A stretch of DNA of 34,082 nucleotides. Origin: Butyrivibrio sp. (GTDB lineage: Bacteria; Bacillota; Clostridia; Lachnospirales; Lachnospiraceae). Numbering within the stretch: position 1 is the stretch's first letter; each line of letters starts with the position of its first letter. The stretch is taken from the NCBI RefSeq assembly GCF_017635265.1, contig NZ_JAGBLU010000021.1, positions 1 through 34,082 on the forward strand, in the 5' to 3' direction. Below, one piece after another: positions 461 to 9,691 of this stretch. Both the position numbers and the translations under genes were made by a program. Below the pieces are notes generated by a model. It was not told the origin of the DNA. It worked only from the letters and a program-made list of their open reading frames with translations, and did no database searches.

Positions 461-2683
461 TTATCTGAGAATAGCGCTCTTTGTTGTTTTTCTTATAACT
501 GTGATTGATGTAAATGCTGCAAGGAGAATGAGCATTATTCTTGCAGGTGTATTTGTTGTATCTTCAGTTGAAGCTCTTCTTGCGCCGAGTACTGCAGCTT
601 CATTATTTGTATCTCTTGTTGCTCCAAGGACAGCTGCTTCTTCGAAAGTAGCTGCTAATGGGGTAGGAGCTTCCGGAATTGTTATAGCTTCCGGAGTAAC
701 CGGTGTAGTTGTAACAGTATCATCAGTTGTTGTATCGTCTGTGTCTGCTGTGTCGTTGTCAGTAGCATCTTCGTCATTATTTACAGGCGTTGGAGATGCT
801 GGAACCGGTAAATCAGGGATAATCGGTGTAACTATAAGTTCAGGATCTGGAGCCGGTGTAATAATAGGTTCAGGATCGGAAATCGGTGTGACAATAGGTT
901 CCGGCGCTGGAGTTGGTGTAACTATCGGGTATATTACAGGAACTGGAGTAATTTCAGGTGTTACCTCGGGTTCAGGAGTAACTGTTGGTTCTGGATCAGG
1001 TGTAGGAGTAACTGTAGGTTCCGGATCAGGTGTAGGTACTACTTCGGGTTCTTCCAGAAGATCCATAAGACTAATGCGACTTAAATATGATCTTTTGCTG
1101 GGTGCTGTGAGCTTTTCAAGGATATTTGGGGTATAGTCAACAAGATTTAAAGTTGGTTCTACAGGTGTGTTATAGGTTTTGTAGACTCTAAGTGGCATCC
1201 ATGCGTAGTCATAAATCATATCTATATCAGTTATATCACTGGCATGGTTTGTCCCGTCTTTATAAGTCAAAGTATGGCTATCGCCACTATTCCATGACCA
1301 GGAAGATGTGACTGCGTTGTCCATTAGCACACTTCCTGCACTTATCCAGTATCCCATGCTGTGATTTTCATCGGTGTTCATATAAAAGCATGCATAACCG
1401 GGATTGGTAGTTTCAAGCTGGGCACCGGCTGAATTAAATGTAATAACGTCGTTTTCATCAATTTCGAAATCTTCAAAATAGTAGAGACCTATTTCTGAAA
1501 AGTTGTGCTCGATATGTATTTTTACAGCATTGCCGGATTTTTCAGAAGCTTCTTCAATAGTATAGGAGTTACCGATTGAAAATACTGCGTTCTCATCTGC
1601 ATTTTTTTCTACGGAAGTGTTTGCAGGATTGTTGTAATAAGTATTTATCGTGTTGTTGTACTGCTCTACAGAATCATATCCGGCTGCTTTGATTCTTTCT
1701 TCCATAGCAAGATCTTTTTCATACTGAACAAGATCTTTTTCATACTGTGCTTGAAGTTTTTCGTTTTCTTTTCGGATTTCCTCGACCTTTTCAAGTTCAG
1801 CCTGATTGTTGGCTTCTATTTCTTCATTTCTTTTTTCGGTATCAACTATAGCCTGCTCATATTCAGCATCAACTGCGCTGTTGTATTCATCAACCTGCTG
1901 ATTATAATTTTCAGCTTCTGAATTGTACTGGCGGATAATGTCGTTGTTTATTTCGCCTGTAGGCTCTTCAGGTTTTGTCGGTTGTACAGGACAGGAAGCA
2001 TTAGTACTATCATTAGAATTTTCTGCTGCATTTTCTAAACTTAGTGTATTTGTTTTTTCTCCGGCAGCTGTTGCATCATCTGAACTATTGACTGACTGTT
2101 CATCATCTGTTGTAGCATTTGTGTTATCACTTTCTTCTTCGGTGGAGTTTAAGTCATTCCGGCTATTTTCATTATCTGCATCACTTTCGTTTTGCTCATC
2201 AGACTTATTGGCTGAATTATCTTCAGTTTGCTCATCAGACTTATTGGCTTTATTAACTTCAGTTTGCTTATCAGACTCATTGGATGCATTAACTTCAGTT
2301 TGTTCATCAGATCCATTGTCTGAATTATTTTCGTTTGAATCTCCGGATTCATTATTTCCGGTGTTTACATCATTGTGGTCCTGCTTATTATTTTCTTTAT
2401 TATCATTCTGGTCATTCTGGTCTGCATTTTCGTTTCCGGTATCCTGATTTTCATTATCGTTGTTATTATCATTATTTTCGTTACTGCTACCAGTGTTGTT
2501 TTCGTTATTTACATCTGATTCATTGTTGTTTTCTTCAGATTCAGAAGCTTCGTTTTCCTGCTGATTGTCATTGGCGTAGGATGTAATTGGCATTCTCATT
2601 GTTCCGGAAAATGTAATTAATGTTGAAAGAAATACTAACATCCAGGTTCTGAATTTGTGGTTTCCTAAATTTTTTCTCATCAT
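461..2683 (-). CDS. large cell-surface protein with coiled coil, Pro-rich wall region and C-terminal membrane anchor
   Basis: This is probably an exported wall-spanning surface protein. It has an N-terminal signal peptide ending near SYAND, then about 200 residues rich in Asn, Asp, Glu and Ser with 12-residue repeats. A coiled-coil stretch follows that contains tandem QYEKDL units resembling the A-repeats of streptococcal antigen I/II, then a compact mixed domain ending near MPLRVYKTYN. Next come a Pro-rich spacer of PDPEPTVTP repeats and an Asp/Thr linker. The C-terminus holds two copies of AAVLGA(T/R)R, a hydrophobic segment (IMLILLAAFTSITVI) and a basic end, the layout of a sorting signal, but there is no LPXTG. 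I chose the ATG at 2683 because GAGGGTGA lies 8 bp upstream; an in-frame ATG at 2704 lacks a well-placed ribosome site. It is monocistronic, ended by the hairpin at 380-419. Its ligand is unknown. Confidence 0.85.
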   Translation of the reverse strand: MMRKNLGNHKFRTWMLVFLSTLITFSGTMRMPITSYANDNQQENEASESEENNNESDVNNENNTGSSNENNDNNNDNENQDTGNENADQNDQNDNKENNKQDHNDVNTGNNESGDSNENNSDNGSDEQTEVNASNESDKQTEVNKANKSDEQTEDNSANKSDEQNESDADNENSRNDLNSTEEESDNTNATTDDEQSVNSSDDATAAGEKTNTLSLENAAENSNDSTNASCPVQPTKPEEPTGEINNDIIRQYNSEAENYNQQVDEYNSAVDAEYEQAIVDTEKRNEEIEANNQAELEKVEEIRKENEKLQAQYEKDLVQYEKDLAMEERIKAAGYDSVEQYNNTINTYYNNPANTSVEKNADENAVFSIGNSYTIEEASEKSGNAVKIHIEHNFSEIGLYYFEDFEIDENDVITFNSAGAQLETTNPGYACFYMNTDENHSMGYWISAGSVLMDNAVTSSWSWNSGDSHTLTYKDGTNHASDITDIDMIYDYAWMPLRVYKTYNTPVEPTLNLVDYTPNILEKLTAPSKRSYLSRISLMDLLEEPEVVPTPDPEPTVTPTPDPEPTVTPEPEVTPEITPVPVIYPIVTPTPAPEPIVTPISDPEPIITPAPDPELIVTPIIPDLPVPASPTPVNNDEDATDNDTADTDDTTTDDTVTTTPVTPEAITIPEAPTPLAATFEEAAVLGATRDTNNEAAVLGARRASTEDTTNTPARIMLILLAAFTSITVIRKTTKSAILR
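785..1045. repeat. Pro-rich tandem coding repeat
   Basis: Degenerate units of about 30 bp encode (P)DPEPTVTPTP-like repeats in the surface protein. The copies at 970-1045 are nearly identical and the distal ones have diverged. Such repeats commonly span the cell wall and vary in copy number. Confidence 0.75.
2185..2328. repeat. four 36-bp tandem coding repeats
   Basis: Four consecutive 36-bp units (about 2185-2220, 2221-2256, 2257-2292, 2293-2328) encode 12-residue repeats with a SD(E/K)QTE core in the Asn/Asp-rich part of the surface protein. The copies differ by a few bases each. Confidence 0.85.
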
Positions 2684-2860
2684 AACATTCACCCTCACTT
2701 TCATTTTTGTTGCTTCGCCCTTTTGTTAGCTTCATAATAGCAACGGCACAATCATAGGAATAATCATAATTGCGCTCAAAAATGTAAGTTAACTGAATGT
2801 TTATGAGTGCTTTATTTTCTTTACTTTTTTGTTATTTTCTCCACATAAATTTTTAGAAAA

Positions 2861-3246: not shown

Positions 3247-3972
3247 ATGCAGGCTTGTATTGATATTCATTGTCATGTAATGCCCGGAGTTGATGACGGC
3301 TCGCCGGATGCGGAAACGAGTCTGAAAATGCTACAGATGGCTGAAAAAGACGGAACTGTAGCTATGATACTTACGCCACATCATAAGCCTATGCATCATA
3401 ATGTAAGTCCTGATCATAATAAAGCATATACAGAGGGGCTTCTTAACAAGGCAAAATCTCTAGGCTTAAAAATAAAACTCTATTCCGGAAACGAAATATA
3501 CTACAGTGAAAAGATCCTTGAAGAACTTGAAAATGGGGAAATATGCACCCTGGCTGGATCAGACTACGTACTTGTTGAGTTTCATCCAACCAATCCCTAT
3601 AAAGCGATTCATAATGCCGTATATCAGATTTTGGGAGCCGGCTACATTCCCATAATTGCTCATATTGAAAGATACAGTGACATAGTTTCCCATCCATCAT
3701 ATGTTAAAGAACTGATAGATATGGGATGTTATATACAGGTAAATGCGTCGAGTGTCATGGGAAAATATGGATTTTTAATATCCCATTTTACAAAGAAACT
3801 GATAAAAAAGCGTCTGGTTCATTTTGTGGCATCTGATGCCCATGATACTAAAACAAGAGCACCGCTTTTGCAGGATTGCAGGAGTTATGTTGATAGAAAA
3901 ACAGATGCTGATTATGGAAGGAAGATATTTTTAGAAAACCCGTTAAGTGTTTTAAAAAATGAATTGATCTGA
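3247..3972 (+). CDS. cpsB: CpsB/YwqE-type PHP tyrosine-protein phosphatase
   Basis: This is a metal-dependent protein tyrosine phosphatase of the PHP superfamily that dephosphorylates the CpsD kinase tail and so tunes capsule or exopolysaccharide synthesis. The N-terminal metal motif DIHCHVMPGVDDG (H8, H10) is canonical. Other expected metal ligands are visible: E83 in SGNEIYY, the His in AHIERY, and SDAHDT near residue 200. Its length of 241 residues is close to the usual 240-255. It is the first gene of the operon, 28 bp before the chain-length gene, as in many Firmicute clusters. The ribosome site is modest (AAAGG). Family assignment is firm; the actual substrate is inferred from the kinase two genes downstream. 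Confidence 0.93.
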   Translation: MQACIDIHCHVMPGVDDGSPDAETSLKMLQMAEKDGTVAMILTPHHKPMHHNVSPDHNKAYTEGLLNKAKSLGLKIKLYSGNEIYYSEKILEELENGEICTLAGSDYVLVEFHPTNPYKAIHNAVYQILGAGYIPIIAHIERYSDIVSHPSYVKELIDMGCYIQVNASSVMGKYGFLISHFTKKLIKKRLVHFVASDAHDTKTRAPLLQDCRSYVDRKTDADYGRKIFLENPLSVLKNELI

Positions 3973-4000: not shown

Positions 4001-4738
4001 GTGAACAAAAGAGATGACATAATAGAAATTAATCTTGGGGAACTGTTTGCAATTCTTTTAGGGAGAGCCTTTTTGATAATAAGTGCCGGAGTCTTTTTTG
4101 CTTTGGCAGGACTTTTTATCAGTAAATTTGTGCTTCACCCGATTTATGAATCAACAACAAAAATTTACATTCTTAATAAGGAAGAGAATCAGACTGTTAC
4201 ATATTCTGACGTGCAGATATCTACGCAGCTCACTCAGGACTATGCTGAACTAATTAAGAGCAGATATGTTCTTGAGGAAGTTATTCAGAGATTGAATCTT
4301 GTGGAAATGGATTATAAGGATTTATCCGATGTTCTTAAAGTGGATACGCCATCTGATACCAGAATAGTTGCTATAACGGTCAGGGATGAAGATCCGCTTA
4401 TGGCCATGAAGATTGCCAACTGTATCCGTGAAGTTGCAAGTGAGCATATTACAAATGTTATGGATATTGACGCAATAAATGTTGCGGAAACAGCAAATGT
4501 TCCAACGGAGAAGGCCAGTCCCAGCGTTGGAAAATGGACTGTTTTTTCAGGATTTATCGGTGCAGTTATAATGGCGTTCTTTGTGATCCTGGGATATCTT
4601 TTGGATGACACAATAAAGAACAATGATGATGTTGAGAGATATTTGGGACTAAGTACACTGGCACTGGTTCCTTTGACAGTTGACGAACAGGATAAAAAGA
4701 AAGCAAAGAAGGCAAAGAATAAAGCTGGTAAGAAGTAA
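4001..4738 (+). CDS. cpsC: Wzz/CpsC-like chain-length and kinase-activating membrane protein
   Basis: This polysaccharide co-polymerase sets polymer chain length and activates the tyrosine kinase encoded next to it. It has an N-terminal membrane helix (about residues 20-46), an extracellular alpha/beta region with QTVTYSDVQISTQLTQDY, the pre-membrane Pro-rich motif VPTEKASPSVGK, and a second helix (about 178-202). The cytoplasmic tail is short and Lys-rich. The start is GTG at 4001 with GGGAGA upstream. At 245 residues it matches the YveK/CpsC class, in which the kinase is a separate protein. It lies 12 bp upstream of the kinase gene. Confidence 0.92.
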   Translation: MNKRDDIIEINLGELFAILLGRAFLIISAGVFFALAGLFISKFVLHPIYESTTKIYILNKEENQTVTYSDVQISTQLTQDYAELIKSRYVLEEVIQRLNLVEMDYKDLSDVLKVDTPSDTRIVAITVRDEDPLMAMKIANCIREVASEHITNVMDIDAINVAETANVPTEKASPSVGKWTVFSGFIGAVIMAFFVILGYLLDDTIKNNDDVERYLGLSTLALVPLTVDEQDKKKAKKAKNKAGKK

Positions 4739-4750
4739 AGTGGGGGAATT

Positions 4751-5578
4751 ATGCAGAACGCAAAGCTTCATTTTAGTCAGGCGGAAAATAATTATCAGAT
4801 AAAAGAAGCGTACAAGACCTTGCGAAGCAACATAGAATTCAGTGGTCAAAATGTCAGGATTATATCTGTGACAAGCTGTACGCCGGGCGAAGGAAAAACT
4901 ACGGTAGCTATGGCTCTTGCCAGAGCTTTTGCTGAAGCCGGAAAAAAGACAATTCTGGTAGATGCCGATATGAGAAAGTCTGTTCTTGTGGGAAGATACA
5001 GAACAGGTTCCGTGAGGCTTGGGTTAACCCATTGTCTTGTGGGTAGAGAAAGACTTTCGAGTGTTATTTGCGAAACGGATACACCTAATTTATATGTGGT
5101 ATTTAGTGGACCGGTTCCTCCCAATCCCAGTGAACTTTTGGGCGGAAGAATATTTGAAAAAGTTTTGGAGAACATGAAGCAGGTATTTGATTATGTAATA
5201 ATCGATACTCCGCCGCTTGGAAGTGTAATAGATGCGGCGGTTGTTTCCAAGCTGTGTGACGGGACAGTTATGGTCGTTGAAAGTAATGCCATCAGCTATA
5301 GATTTGCACAGAGAGTAAAAGATCAGCTTGATAAGGCCGGAGCTAAAATACTTGGAGTTGTTCTTAACAAAGTGGATATTTCCGGTAAAGGATATTATGG
5401 ACACTACGGCAATTACTATGGCAAATATTATGGTAAATATTACGGTAATTACTATGGTAAAGAGGCAGACAGTACTACGGGGGTAAATAGCAGACCCAGG
5501 GAAAAGGAGCCTTCACCTCCCGATGATGACCTTGACGAACTTAGCTATCTTGCGGAAGTTACCAGAAAAGACGGATGA
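4751..5578 (+). CDS. cpsD: CpsD/YwqD-type BY-kinase
   Basis: This is a cytoplasmic bacterial tyrosine kinase that autophosphorylates on a C-terminal Tyr cluster and acts with the Wzz-like partner. Walker A is TPGEGKTT (K49), Walker A' is ILVDADMRKS and Walker B is VIIDTPPLG. The tail at about residues 215-240 holds eleven Tyr in a near-tandem GNYYGKYYGK pattern, more regular than the few Tyr usual in the family. About 35 residues of charged tail follow, which is also longer than usual. The ribosome site GTGGGGG lies before the ATG. Its neighbours, the phosphatase and the activator, complete the standard phosphorylation module. Confidence 0.94.
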   Translation: MQNAKLHFSQAENNYQIKEAYKTLRSNIEFSGQNVRIISVTSCTPGEGKTTVAMALARAFAEAGKKTILVDADMRKSVLVGRYRTGSVRLGLTHCLVGRERLSSVICETDTPNLYVVFSGPVPPNPSELLGGRIFEKVLENMKQVFDYVIIDTPPLGSVIDAAVVSKLCDGTVMVVESNAISYRFAQRVKDQLDKAGAKILGVVLNKVDISGKGYYGHYGNYYGKYYGKYYGNYYGKEADSTTGVNSRPREKEPSPPDDDLDELSYLAEVTRKDG

Positions 5579-5604
5579 TCAATTAAAATTAATTGGAGGA
5601 GCAG

Positions 5605-6072
5605 GTGAAAGGGAATATTTTCGGTATATTTTTTACCATATTAAGTGGGGTTCTGGTAGTGCTTATAGTTCTGGCATATGGGAGAAGTGATAAGCTGCCG
5701 CCGGAATTTAGATTTACTGCGCTGAATCTTACCTATGGTTCCGAAACAACAGATAAGGATCTGCTTGCAGGAATAAATGCTTATGATTCAAAAGACGGAG
5801 ATCTTACTTCCAGGATTGTAGTTGAAAAAGTCGTACTTAACAGAGATCAGGAGACAGCGGTAGTTTATTATGCTGTGGCTGATTTCAGCGGAAATGTGAC
5901 AAAACAATCCAGAGTTTTTCCGGCAGATATCAAAGATATAGACAATAATGGCGATGCTGTGGATGTAATGGAGGATGGTCTTTTCCCTGATATGTTGATG
6001 GGAGAAACGCTTGAATCCGACCGGGACAATAGCGCAGATGCTTCGTCAAACGGAAATTCTTTGGAGGATTGA
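5605..6072 (+). CDS. membrane-anchored protein with Ig-like (DUF5011-like) domain
   Basis: This is a short bitopic protein of unknown role. A single N-terminal helix (IFFTILSGVLVVLIVLAYG) is followed by an extracellular beta domain with the sequence AYDSKDGDLTSRI and YYAVADFSGNVT. These are the DGD(L/I)T and (D)xxGN marks of bacterial Ig-like repeats such as DUF5011. The tail is acidic and Ser/Asn-rich. I chose GTG at 5605 because GGAGGA (5595-5600) precedes it at normal spacing; a TTG at 5593 would overlap that site. It lies between the kinase and the LCP gene in a tight operon, so it may bind or present the nascent polymer or wall. That role is inference only. Confidence 0.75.
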   Translation: MKGNIFGIFFTILSGVLVVLIVLAYGRSDKLPPEFRFTALNLTYGSETTDKDLLAGINAYDSKDGDLTSRIVVEKVVLNRDQETAVVYYAVADFSGNVTKQSRVFPADIKDIDNNGDAVDVMEDGLFPDMLMGETLESDRDNSADASSNGNSLED

Positions 6073-6088
6073 CAACAGGAGATAATAC

Positions 6089-7147
6089 ATGCGTGGAGCA
6101 GTAAAGGTCTTTCTCATAATCTGGGCTGTACTTATGACCATTACTACACTTGGTCTTGCCGGGTTTGAGGTAATGCGAATATTTGGAAAAACAAATCTTG
6201 ACTCTAAATCCGCAACATCAACGCCAATGATGGCTCAGACGGATACGGCAGTCTATGAAGATACTTCTGCCACATGGGAAGATGACTGGATCACATATGA
6301 CGGCAATGTTTATGACTATAACGATGATATAACAACTTTCCTGATTATGGGAATAGATAAAGATGATGATACGGTAGTAAAGGTTGCCGAGGGAACGGAT
6401 GGAGGCCAGGCAGATGCGTTGTTTTTGCTGGTCCTCGATCCTCATGATCAGTCAATCAAAATAATTGGTATTAATAGAAACTCCATGACAAATGTTGATG
6501 TTTATGATGAATTTGGCAGGTATCAGACCACAGTAATTGCTCAATTAGCCACACAGCATGGCTTTGGAGACGGTATGGAAGAAAGCTGTGGTTATCAGGT
6601 AAAGGCTGTTTCAAATATGTTTTATCAGCTTCCGATACATGGATATGCGGCTATTAACATGAGCGCTATTCCAATTATAAACGACCAGGTTGGAGGTGTG
6701 GATGTAACTGTTTTGGAGGATTTGACCAAGTGGGATAAAACACTAAAGAAAGGTGCGCAGGTCCATCTTGAGGGAGACAGTGCTTTTTACTATGTTAAAT
6801 CCAGAGATGTAAGTGTATTCGGGTCTAATGAAAACAGACTTGAGAGGCAGAGGCAGTACCTTGAAGGCTTTATTGAGGCAGCAAAAGAGACTACTAAAGA
6901 AAACAATAACGCAGCGGTTGAGCTGTTTAGTGCCATAAGCAGCAAGATGGTTACAAATATTACTGCGGATGAGATAAGCTATCTGGCTCCGCTTATCTCA
7001 AATTTTGAATTTGATTCAGAAGACATAATTACGATTAAAGGTGAAAATGTTAAGAACGGAAAGTTTGAAGAGTTCTATGTAGATGATGACGATCTTTACA
7101 AAACAATAATTGATGTTTTTTATGAAAAAGTTGATGCTGTGGACTAA
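6089..7147 (+). CDS. LytR-CpsA-Psr (LCP) family wall-polymer ligase
   Basis: LCP proteins transfer undecaprenyl-linked polysaccharide or teichoic acid onto peptidoglycan at the outer face of the membrane. Here an N-terminal helix (about residues 5-28) is followed by a linker and the LCP domain. Its landmarks are FLIMGIDKDD, GGQADALFLLVLD, IKIIGINRNSM, GGVDVTV, LEGDSAFYYVKSRD and NRLERQRQYL, which include the Asp and Arg residues that hold the lipid pyrophosphate. At 352 residues it is of usual length. It starts with ATG after CAGGAGA. It is 16 bp downstream of the Ig-like gene and 4 bp upstream of the sortase-like gene, so the three are probably cotranslated. Confidence 0.92.
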   Translation: MRGAVKVFLIIWAVLMTITTLGLAGFEVMRIFGKTNLDSKSATSTPMMAQTDTAVYEDTSATWEDDWITYDGNVYDYNDDITTFLIMGIDKDDDTVVKVAEGTDGGQADALFLLVLDPHDQSIKIIGINRNSMTNVDVYDEFGRYQTTVIAQLATQHGFGDGMEESCGYQVKAVSNMFYQLPIHGYAAINMSAIPIINDQVGGVDVTVLEDLTKWDKTLKKGAQVHLEGDSAFYYVKSRDVSVFGSNENRLERQRQYLEGFIEAAKETTKENNNAAVELFSAISSKMVTNITADEISYLAPLISNFEFDSEDIITIKGENVKNGKFEEFYVDDDDLYKTIIDVFYEKVDAVD

Positions 7148-7151
7148 ATAA

Positions 7152-7886
7152 ATGAACAAAACCAGACGATATACAGATATAGATAGGGAAATTGTCAAAA
7201 AAATTATTTTAGTGGTACTTGTTTTTCTGGCAGTAACAGGATGCGCTAAAACAGATAAAGAAATAAATCCTTCGGACGGCGATGGGACACTGATTGATTT
7301 TGAAAGCCTAAGGGAAGAAAACGAGGACATTTTTGCCTGGATTTATGCTCCGGGCACAGGAATCAACGGACCGCTTTTACAAAATTCTGACGGTGATGAT
7401 GAGTTCTATAAGTCACATAACGTTGCAAAAGAGCCGGATCCAAACGGGTGCTATTACATAGAATCCGCGAACATGAAAGATATGTGTGATTTTAATGAGG
7501 TGGTTCACGGAGTTCCGACTGCAGAGCTTGGCAGATTCCTTGACAGAAGCTATTTTGAAAGTCATCAGTATATTCAGGTCTACATGGATGGCAATTCTCT
7601 TATTTACTACATAATGGCAGCATATACAAGAGACAATTCAAGGCTGCTTGAACAGTACGATTTTTCGTATGCGTCAGGATGTCAGCAGTTTATTGATGAG
7701 ATATATTCCGGAAGGTCTATGAATAAGAATATCAGATCCGGATGGGAAACAGGACTTGAACCCGGACATTTTCTTTTGACACTTACATCTGATGACAGTG
7801 ATAAGCAGACTGTGGTAATAGGTTGTCTTGTGGGAGATGCTGCAGGGAAAATTGACAGGGTGATTGACTGGGAAGATCAGGAGTAA
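7152..7886 (+). CDS. sortase B-like lipoprotein lacking all three catalytic residues
   Basis: An N-terminal lipobox (VTGC, C31) predicts an outer-face lipoprotein, unusual for a sortase, which normally has a plain membrane anchor. The body follows the class B sortase pattern: IFAWIYAPGTGINGPLLQ, then DDEFYKSHN, NEVVHG, YIQVYMDG, YYIMAAY and LLTLTSD. The catalytic YGH is replaced by HGV (His to V121), the TLxTC Cys by Asp (TLTSD, D214) and the active-site Arg position by Gln (Q219). The loop after the His is shortened. It therefore cannot be a working transpeptidase and may have become a binding or scaffold protein. It starts 4 bp after the LCP stop with a weak ribosome site, so translation is probably coupled. 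The fold assignment comes from reading the motifs; the loss of catalytic residues is visible directly. Confidence 0.8.
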   Translation: MNKTRRYTDIDREIVKKIILVVLVFLAVTGCAKTDKEINPSDGDGTLIDFESLREENEDIFAWIYAPGTGINGPLLQNSDGDDEFYKSHNVAKEPDPNGCYYIESANMKDMCDFNEVVHGVPTAELGRFLDRSYFESHQYIQVYMDGNSLIYYIMAAYTRDNSRLLEQYDFSYASGCQQFIDEIYSGRSMNKNIRSGWETGLEPGHFLLTLTSDDSDKQTVVIGCLVGDAAGKIDRVIDWEDQE

Positions 7887-7976: not shown

Positions 7977-8918
7977 ATGAAGAAAATTCTTGCTCTCACG
8001 GTTGCAGGCATTTTGCTTGTAAGTTCATCTTTAAGCGTATTTGCGGCAGATGAAACTACGACAACAGGTTCAAAGAGTATTACTACAGAGGATCTGATGA
8101 ATAAGATTGAAGATCTGCAGACAAAGCTTGAAAGTGCTATTCAGGAAAGTGAAACAAACACTTCTGAGCAGGTTACAACTCTTAGAGAGAGCGTGGCTAC
8201 TTTGAGAGAGAATGTTGTTACTTTGCAGGAAAAAGTGCAAACGCTTAAAGAAGAGATAGCAGTTTTACAGACAAACGAGGAAGCGAATGCAGAACAGATT
8301 GCTGAACTTACAACAAAAATGGAAGAGTACGAAGTAATTCTTGAAGGATACGAGGAACAGCTTCAGAGTAGTACTGCTCAGCTGGCTCTTTTGACAACTC
8401 AGGTGCAGAATCTGGCAAATGCAATTTCTGCAAGCGGAAGTAAGGGCTCTAAGTCGTCAGGGTCTTCCGGTGGTTCAGGCGGTTCAGGTGGAGGAAGTTC
8501 TTCATCTGCAAATGATTTTTATAAGAGAAATAATATAGTTGGCTATGGCTCAACTATCGTAGGACAGGGCGGTCATGTAGAGATTAACGGTGGTAAGAGC
8601 AGTGTGACATTTGTACTTACTCCGGCTACCGGTGGGCAGCTTACTTCAGCAACCTCTCTTGCAGCAAGTGTTGGAGGAACGCTCCTTAATGTGGTGACAA
8701 CAAGTTCTCCCGGAGCTTCATTTAAAACAGCAAAGGTTAATTTCTACGTTAGTGGAGTATCTGTAGGAGATAATATCGCTGTATATCAGCTTCAGGGAAG
8801 TAAGTGGGTACAGCTTCAGGTGTCGGAAATTCGTAAAGAGCATGTAATTGTAAATATGTCACAGCATGGAACAGTAGCATTTATAAGAGTTCCTGTTATG
8901 GCATCCGCAACAAATTGA
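7977..8918 (+). CDS. exported coiled-coil protein with Gly/Ser hinge and C-terminal beta domain
   Basis: I do not recognise this family. A classical signal peptide (LALTVAGILLVSSSLSVFA, cut before ADE) precedes about 110 residues of helical heptads such as LRESVATLRENVVTLQEKV. A Ser/Gly hinge follows near residues 155-180, then a beta-rich domain of about 130 residues starting at DFYKRNNIVGYG and ending in HGTVAFIRVP. I chose ATG 7977 because GGAGG lies 10 bp upstream; a GTG at 7944 has no ribosome site. There is no membrane segment or lipobox, so it is secreted or held by the wall or polymer. Its place just before the priming transferase suggests a structural role in the polysaccharide layer, possibly as an oligomeric stalk. 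Confidence 0.8.
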   Translation: MKKILALTVAGILLVSSSLSVFAADETTTTGSKSITTEDLMNKIEDLQTKLESAIQESETNTSEQVTTLRESVATLRENVVTLQEKVQTLKEEIAVLQTNEEANAEQIAELTTKMEEYEVILEGYEEQLQSSTAQLALLTTQVQNLANAISASGSKGSKSSGSSGGSGGSGGGSSSSANDFYKRNNIVGYGSTIVGQGGHVEINGGKSSVTFVLTPATGGQLTSATSLAASVGGTLLNVVTTSSPGASFKTAKVNFYVSGVSVGDNIAVYQLQGSKWVQLQVSEIRKEHVIVNMSQHGTVAFIRVPVMASATN

Positions 8919-8989: not shown

Positions 8990-9691
8990 ATGGCAAAAGC
9001 TGCTACAGTACCGGTAAGAGTCGAAAAAGTTTTGGCCGGTCGAAAGATAATTGAGCTTAATTATCAGGAAATATATGATCATAAGCCCAATGTGTACAAA
9101 TGGATAAAAAGGGCGTTTGATATAGTCGCATCAAGTATTGCAATCATTATGCTTTCGCCGATATTTATAGTGACAGCATTAGCAATCTTTTTAGAAGATG
9201 GCGGTCCTGTTTTCTTTACACAACAAAGAGCAGGCAAAGATATGAAGAGCTTCAAGATTTACAAGTTTAGAAGCATGTATAAAAATGCTGAAGCTCAATT
9301 TGAGAGAATGCAGGCTCAGAATGAACAGACAGGTCATGCATTTAAGATCAAGAATGATCCAAGGATTACCCATGTTGGTAAATTCATAAGGCGCTACTCC
9401 ATAGATGAACTTCCACAGCTCTTTAACATCATTAAAGGAGATATGAGCATTGTAGGACCAAGGCCTATACTTACAACTCAGATGGAAGAATGTAACGCTT
9501 ATGAGAAGCAGAGAACAATTGTTAAGCCCGGACTTACCTGCTACTGGCAGGTATGTGGGAGAGCCAAGATAAAATGGGATAAGTGGGTAGAGCTTGATCT
9601 TCAGTATATTCAGGACATGAGCATTGCAAAAGACATAGAGCTGATATTTAGAACCTTCCCTGCAATTTTCGGACAGGATGGAGCATATTGA
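8990..9691 (+). CDS. undecaprenyl-phosphate sugar-1-phosphate transferase (priming enzyme)
   Basis: This polyisoprenyl-phosphate hexose-1-phosphate transferase starts the repeat unit by moving sugar-1-phosphate from a nucleotide sugar to undecaprenyl phosphate. It is a short form of the family: one hydrophobic hairpin (about residues 44-68) and then the catalytic domain with GPVFFTQQRAGKD, FKIYKFRSM, IRRYSIDELPQLFNI, MSIVGPRP and PGLTCYWQV. The catalytic Asp-Glu pair lies in the DELPQL motif. The long N-terminal multi-helix region of WcaJ-type enzymes is absent. The ribosome site GAGGGGG is strong. It is the last gene of the operon and is followed by the terminator at 9720-9757. Sugar specificity cannot be read from the sequence. 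Confidence 0.93.
   Translation: MAKAATVPVRVEKVLAGRKIIELNYQEIYDHKPNVYKWIKRAFDIVASSIAIIMLSPIFIVTALAIFLEDGGPVFFTQQRAGKDMKSFKIYKFRSMYKNAEAQFERMQAQNEQTGHAFKIKNDPRITHVGKFIRRYSIDELPQLFNIIKGDMSIVGPRPILTTQMEECNAYEKQRTIVKPGLTCYWQVCGRAKIKWDKWVELDLQYIQDMSIAKDIELIFRTFPAIFGQDGAY

Follow-up and report, generated by a model that had tools for sequence, protein, structure and literature searches.

A conserved, catalytically dead class B sortase encoded beside an LCP ligase in Butyrivibrio

Why would an operon of capsule/exopolysaccharide type keep, next to a glycopolymer ligase, a sortase that has lost its catalytic residues? The question is raised by the window, the whole 34,082-nucleotide stretch of Butyrivibrio sp. 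DNA analyzed here, in which the open reading frame at 7152-7886 (+) encodes a 244-residue product. An earlier note on this DNA had read the product as a sortase fold put to non-enzymatic use on the membrane's outer side, working with the LCP (LytR-CpsA-Psr) ligase encoded 4 bp upstream. The spacing is as it claimed (the LCP stop codon ends at 7147), and the reuse is supported both by the predicted fold, which is that of SrtB, and by orthologs that lack His, Cys and Arg. The genes of this region are listed below.

3247-3972 (+): CpsB/CapC tyrosine phosphatase (PF19567, E = 3.2e-100)
4001-4738 (+): Wzz chain-length protein (CpsC type)
4751-5578 (+): tyrosine kinase with an AAA_31 match, which from gene order we take to be CpsD
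5593-6072 (+): short protein whose N-terminal part has a hydrophobic segment; its Ig-like match is weak and under the cut-off
6089-7147 (+): LCP glycopolymer ligase (profile matches)
7152-7886 (+): pseudo-sortase of class B fold without catalytic His, Cys and Arg, predicted to be lipid-anchored
7977-8918 (+): partner, a secreted protein with a coiled coil, a Ser/Gly linker and a C-terminal beta domain, without a sorting signal at its end
8496-8915 (+): C-terminal beta domain of the partner (AF2 pLDDT 85.0)
8990-9691 (+): bacterial sugar transferase of the priming undecaprenyl-phosphate type (profile matches)

A class B sortase fold without its catalytic residues

The homology of the 7152-7886 product to sortases is far beyond chance. 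It matches the NCBIfam class B sortase profile TIGR03064 with an E-value of 1.5e-18 and 67 bits, below the cut-off of 153.75, and sequences of SrtB in the PDB with a best E-value of 1.1e-10; a Pfam search gave no match at E ≤ 1, and the PF04203 cut-off (26.6 bits) was not reached. An AF2 model of the domain has a mean pLDDT of 90.8 and a pTM of 0.88, and its closest PDB match is SrtB (5b23_A, E = 1.7e-16, TM 0.76/0.82), with class B sortases filling ranks 1-19 of the best 50 of 607 matches. The class B framework proposed in the earlier note is thus borne out by the structure search, which returned an SrtB fold. The TIGR03064 cut-off is no clean divider of active from dead proteins: active sortases score 159.3 (L118), 185.7 (L087) and 176.6 (L096) bits and dead ones 102.5 (L114), 67.8 (L077), 116.1 (L106) and 121 (L179), while the active L004 reaches 142.3.

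The residues that define the loss, the lipobox and the modeled domain lie as follows.

7242-7244 (+): codon of lipobox Cys31 (LAVTGC), in the predicted lipoprotein signal peptide
7284-7883 (+): sortase-fold domain, the input to the AF2 model
7512-7514 (+): codon of V121, at the catalytic His position
7680-7682 (+): codon of C177, a new Cys
7791-7793 (+): codon of D214, at the catalytic Cys position
7806-7808 (+): codon of Q219, at the catalytic Arg position

C31, V121, D214 and Q219 are the residues that the earlier note had named. V121, D214 and Q219 were placed in the His, Cys and Arg columns by alignment with active relatives; at the Cys column the query is gapped by one position in one alignment and was read by eye as TLTSD. 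We searched 194 related genomes, 79 of which, including the window's own, belong to its genus; some of the genomes surveyed are incomplete. A close ortholog is present in 62 of the 79, and one copy per genome plus a truncated extra copy (L074) make up a main-clade set of 63 rows. The His column of these 63 holds S in 37, K in 10, V in 6, A in 6 and Q, N, P and Y once each, and never His. Cys is found in none of the 63 (five show a gap there, of which four are one-position shifts, in the query and L007-L009, and one is a truncation), and the Arg column of the 62 readable copies holds Gln in 60, Glu in one and Arg in one (L066). The losses of His and Cys are common to all 63 genus copies, each of which lies beside an LCP gene, and the survey found no ortholog that keeps all three residues. 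A GDxAGxIDR stretch near the C-terminus is a new conserved feature of these proteins, and 16 pairs (15 in the main clade, one in a second dead group described below) have dN/dS values of 0.056-0.452, with frames read from stop to stop and four pairs saturated (dS > 1.4).

A simple recent mutant is ruled out by the 63 dead copies and the low dN/dS, and we regard a decaying pseudogene or sequencing artefact as hardly credible. One genome, G062, does carry a frameshifted extra copy (L074) and another with stops on contig C17; against this reading, the best copies of 60 of the 62 genomes have no stop within the match, G065 and G018 have one stop each yet contain open frames that run to the conserved C-terminal end, and both the dN/dS range and the new invariant residues argue for constraint. 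Decay is rejected for the family on its conservation; single copies could still be broken, the G062 extras being an example. With the sortase fold kept, the catalytic residues gone and purifying selection acting across species, the protein is a pseudoenzyme, and the family is a conserved, dead, LCP-linked sortase. The broken copies in G062, with frameshifts or stops, are of the LCP and pseudo-sortase region (L074 on contig C12; C17:17844-19719, L197), and an intact copy, L032, lies elsewhere in that genome.

The protein is also a predicted lipoprotein, with a signal peptide that ends in a lipobox and a conserved Cys; 59 of the 63 main-clade copies carry the lipobox by a strict rule and the remaining four by eye. 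The accompanying statement of the earlier note, that sortases are not normally lipoproteins, holds for our sample apart from one clear exception (L180) and one doubtful rule hit (L192) among 104 active rows. The exception, L180:2995-3918 (-), is a sortase with His, Cys and Arg intact and an apparent lipobox, FLLTGC, in a stretch without an LCP gene. A sortase can be dead without being lipidated, because two dead sortases, L106 and L179, have a membrane segment in place of the lipobox and keep the Arg; the dead L115 also fails the lipobox rule.

Several cysteines are new to the family: of 59 aligned pseudo-sortases, all 59 have C177, 55 have C112 and 56 have C225. A strict disulfide pair among the three is unsupported, as their losses do not coincide (C112 is Thr in L013, L060, L065 and L068; C225 is missing in L054, L058 and L075). 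This conservation is what would be expected if the protein were still an enzyme, its chemistry relocated to a new Cys, a reading we find unlikely. The Arg position is Gln almost throughout; no His is conserved near the old site (residue 119, which lies two positions ahead of the lost His, is mostly H and otherwise Y, L or N); C112 and C225 are lost in different rows (four and three, respectively) and so not as a pair; and the partner presents no sorting signal to act on.

Linkage to LCP genes among dead and active sortases

The window's genes run CpsB, Wzz, CpsD-type kinase, Ig-like protein, LCP, pseudo-sortase, secreted coiled-coil protein and sugar transferase. The order from CpsB to the partner recurs in the main-clade loci with a stretch of sufficient length, L076 and the broken L074 excepted, and the Ig-like short protein precedes the LCP gene wherever main-clade stretches show it. 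All 63 main-clade rows have an LCP gene nearby, within 60 bases in 62 and at 218 bases in L075. Counted by genome, the LCP gene lies upstream in 61 of the 62 that hold a pseudo-sortase and tail to tail in L076, on a contig of 5957 bases. Conversely, an LCP search of the 79 genus genomes gave matches above 350 bits in 62, namely 61 pseudo-sortase holders and G048; the LCP of the holder G032 is cut by a contig end, and the G048 locus (L131) has a divergent dead sortase at the equivalent place beside its LCP gene. The LCP enzymes themselves appear intact: all 72 from dead-sortase loci, taken after filtering by length and score, have R131, R240, R251, R254, D91 and D110, and among those from active loci these residues are present in 65-68 of 68. 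The changes seen are confined to the active site of the sortase, its anchor and the tag of its partner.

To place the dead family among its relatives, we searched its profile, which reaches several sortase kinds, in 397 genomes of the bacterial family and found a match in 360. Thirty loci (two of them main-clade), then 60 and 40 among the matches listed, and 20 Butyrivibrio stretches were fetched, and the first sample comprises 180 rows. In this sample 68 active and 69 dead sortases have an LCP gene no more than 150 bases away, and a further seven of each have one within 1000 bases; the 29 rows that remain, with no LCP gene in that range, are all active. Because rows were picked by similarity to the dead family, the proportions do not stand for frequencies in the population. 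Forty further, lower-scoring family stretches contained no substituted triad, all keeping His, Cys and Arg save the truncated L250. Active and dead forms coexist: a main-clade pseudo-sortase is also present in 11 of the 15 Butyrivibrio genomes from which an active LCP-linked sortase (L116-L130) was sampled.

The dead rows total 76, the 63 of the main clade and 13 others, and 74 of them are in the window's genus. Five of the 13 (L077-L080 and L131) join the main clade in a quick tree, L131 on a long and unsure branch. A second dead group near LCP genes (L082, L083, L114, L115, L132 and L133) keeps the Arg, and five of its six members have a lipobox by rule; L114 (G000:C103:24500-32000) lies on contig C103 of the window's own genome. 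The only dead rows outside the genus are the singletons with a membrane segment, L106 (QHR at the three positions) and L179 (PHR). Searches of the surrounding genera (four genomes and one genome, respectively), in which short motifs were read, listed no other close dead ortholog. His occupies the former Cys position in L106, L179 and L075, three dead sortases that lie apart in the tree.

The tree covers 93 of the 180 rows, with main-clade and active rows thinned and active-site columns omitted. On it, the dead or active state of the sortase needs four changes, of which starred branches alone force two, and that of the partner's motif three; the fork holding 31 main-clade-like rows has a support of 88 and is unstarred. 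Independent losses are so few that a test on independent pairs had two pairs to work with (median p = 0.5), a number at which significance is out of reach.

A partner without a sorting signal

Directly downstream of the pseudo-sortase lies a gene that the earlier note had passed over. We read its start from the sequence as the ATG at 7977; the open reading frame listing puts the start of the frame at a GTG (7944), and 7974 was used in some searches. A PDB search with the model of its C-terminal beta domain gave no hit at E ≤ 0.001, the best being an ankyrin ZU5 domain (8e-3), with adhesion-GPCR GAIN domains also appearing, so that these weak matches are at most a hint of its fold. A profile seeded with the C-terminal 130 residues of five dead-locus partners only reached, on iteration, the SPxTG proteins of active loci (140 open reading frames from 138 loci, some loci having been fetched more than once), from which we conclude that the 7977-8918 product is homologous to those proteins. 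The window's locus thus has homologous LCP and partner genes adjoining the sortase-fold gene, as in the active trios.

The two kinds of locus differ in how the partner ends. All 57 readable, profile-matched partners in active LCP loci carry an SPxTG-type signal or a near variant: 32 were recognized by rule, 12 by eye, 10 came from extended stretches and three from a later sample. PxTG is found in 47 and a variant in 10 (L142, L146, L157, L161, L168, L189, L221, L228, L239 and L244). The 12 that the automatic rule missed comprise 10 whose sequence stops at the motif or directly behind it, and two with a variant motif and a hydrophobic segment; in L137 the partner picked by the rule scan belongs to a neighboring sortase, and the locus's own partner also ends in SPKTGR. 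None of the 73 readable partners of dead sortases, the window's among them, has a sorting signal. Partners are recognizable in 74 of the 76 dead loci; one is cut (L013), and L073 and L076 have none in the stretch. Dead-locus partners end at the beta domain or shortly beyond it, that of L194 having a longer tail without a motif, and those of the second dead group (L082, L083, L114, L115, L132 and L133) also have no signal. A permissive motif pattern hit nine of 74 dead-locus partners, by eye inside the domain and never as a C-terminal tag.

A raw scan for any sorting-signal-like C-terminus had hits in 37 of 74 active loci with LCP; at least two of these 37 are spurious (L089 and L101, frames on the strand opposite the sortase). 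Active loci lacking LCP gave six hits in 29, and the 75 dead loci scanned, those other than the window's own, gave a single one, a different, 806-residue protein in L077. Among active loci without LCP, 3 of 27 have a profile-matched partner, in all three with a signal. The trio is not universal: 26 of the 74 active LCP-linked loci had no profile-matched partner and in four it was cut. Of these 30, 17 were fetched at greater length; 10 then gave a partner with a signal, four (L214, L215, L220 and L230) a PxTG protein that the profile did not match, and three (L216, L218 and L219) neither. Four of the 13 left unextended (L134, L139, L145 and L186) also have an unmatched PxTG protein.

Two comparisons bring active and dead trios close together. 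Genome G402 holds two trios: in the active one (L104/L232) the partner's C-terminal end bears APQTG with a hydrophobic segment, and the other (L179/L195) is dead. Over the aligned part their sortases are 51% and their partners 47% identical. The dead L106/L194 groups with the active L105/L213, whose partner has SPKTG and a hydrophobic segment (SH-aLRT 87). Active site and tag appear to be missing together on about four lineages, and with so few losses the coupling is statistically unproven.

Some partners beside active sortases take an unusual form for a sortase substrate, ending at or just after the motif (SPKTGE, then stop) without a hydrophobic segment or charged tail (L112, L135, L136, L137, L143, L147, L149, L151, L161, L177, L217 and L251). 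Elsewhere in the window, 461-2704 (-) encodes a large, acidic, low-complexity protein of surface type whose C-terminus has a hydrophobic segment and a charged tail. VLGARRASTED stands before these two; partners such as that of L118 show VLGA...SPRTGD, and L077:1-2418 ends similarly.

A proposed change from enzyme and substrate to receptor and ligand

The dead active site, the lipid-anchor signal, the LCP neighbor and the tag-less partner together suggest that an enzyme-substrate pair has turned into a binding pair. We infer from these sequence features that the pseudo-sortase may bind the partner, and we give roughly even weight to the fuller reading that, anchored by its lipid, it keeps what used to be its substrate next to the LCP ligase with no covalent step, enzyme and substrate having become receptor and ligand. 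In the active trio, the sortase would fix the partner covalently to the wall, next to the LCP enzyme and its work of polymer attachment. The covalent step would be gone from the Butyrivibrio trio, and the lipid-anchored sortase fold would retain the binding role alone, tethering the partner at the membrane's outer face near the LCP enzyme and so acting as a scaffold on which polymer is attached or displayed. Sorting signals, one of the ligands that the earlier note had offered, are a weaker candidate, since the neighboring 7977-8918 product, a homolog of signal-bearing proteins, has none itself.

The LCP linkage by itself could mean something else: that the pseudo-sortase serves the LCP ligase as a subunit or activator, positioning lipid-linked polymer or a peptidoglycan acceptor, and that the partner is a bystander whose anchor was lost. 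The short distances in the main clade (62 of 63 rows within 60 bases, L075 at 218), the presence of an LCP gene within 1000 bases of all 76 dead rows, the lack of any dead sortase among the 29 LCP-less rows of the first sample and the intact triads of the 40 further stretches (apart from the truncated L250) are all consistent with such a role. Where it falters is the partner, which is recognizable in 74 of the 76 dead loci and has no tag wherever the sortase is dead and the partner readable; a bystander need not lose its tag, and we consider the subunit reading rather unlikely. Less probable still is a surface lectin whose old groove binds polymer or peptidoglycan independently of LCP and partner: the operon context would suit it, but the sequence searches and the best 50 of 607 matches of the fold search gave no sugar-binding family, and the tight linkage to both neighbors speaks against independence.

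The receptor-ligand reading has a possible extension, which we put forward more tentatively. The capsule of Lachnospiraceae would be anchored through a protein carrier, with the LCP enzyme loading polymer onto the partner and the sortase fixing the resulting glycoprotein to the wall; the Butyrivibrio pseudo-sortase would then be a lipid-anchored receptor that retains the carrier non-covalently. Protein-carried polymer would explain why LCP, sortase and SPxTG protein travel together. The trio and its dead counterpart would likewise offer a concrete hypothesis for the presence of a sortase in polysaccharide loci of gut and rumen Lachnospiraceae. If the carrier reading is right, the family would represent a conserved sortase pseudoenzyme, its ancestry visible in the way active site and substrate tag have disappeared in step. 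In the open-licence PubMed Central literature, titles and the starts of abstracts among the matches listed held no description of a conserved sortase pseudoenzyme or of an LCP-sortase-SPxTG trio.

Set beside class B sortases (TIGR03064/PF04203; the C. perfringens enzyme and S. aureus SrtB), the pseudo-sortase shares the whole-domain fold, the framework motifs and N-terminal membrane targeting. Unlike them, it lacks His, Cys and Arg, carries a lipobox, scores below both curated cut-offs and has a neighboring partner without a sorting signal. A system close to it by description is M. gnavus SrtB4, named class B, whose gene (srtB4, RGna_12035) adjoins by locus tag the LCP gene RGna_12040 in a CPS cluster (PMC13121745). 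As that 2026 paper reports, loss of srtB4 removes the capsule halo and strongly lowers cell-wall polysaccharide, a plasmid copy restores them, and the sortase is needed for capsule display and is unlikely to catalyze capsule production directly; candidate substrates near M. gnavus sortase genes are mentioned in its supplement (PMC13121745). SrtB4 is treated there as an enzyme, in a main text that does not use the word 'catalytic' (PMC13121745). A protein carrier, if it exists, would account for the need for a sortase in M. gnavus capsule display.

The A. oris system offers a precedent for an LCP enzyme acting on a protein: by the published account, LcpA glycosylates the secreted protein GspA, which is then sortase-anchored (PMC6381275). 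There, too, an LCP enzyme is genetically linked to a sortase-anchored secreted protein; it differs from the Butyrivibrio trio in that SrtA is an active housekeeping enzyme of an actinobacterium and that GspA has a sorting signal, being glycosylated even without it (PMC6381275). The closest counterparts are the Lachnospiraceae trios of LCP, active SrtB and SPxTG protein (for example L118, L098 and L156), three homologous adjoining genes that often lie with CpsB, Wzz and kinase genes. These differ from the window's trio in their intact triad, membrane-segment anchor and motif-bearing partner, and active and dead trios may serve as natural experiments that separate binding from catalysis.
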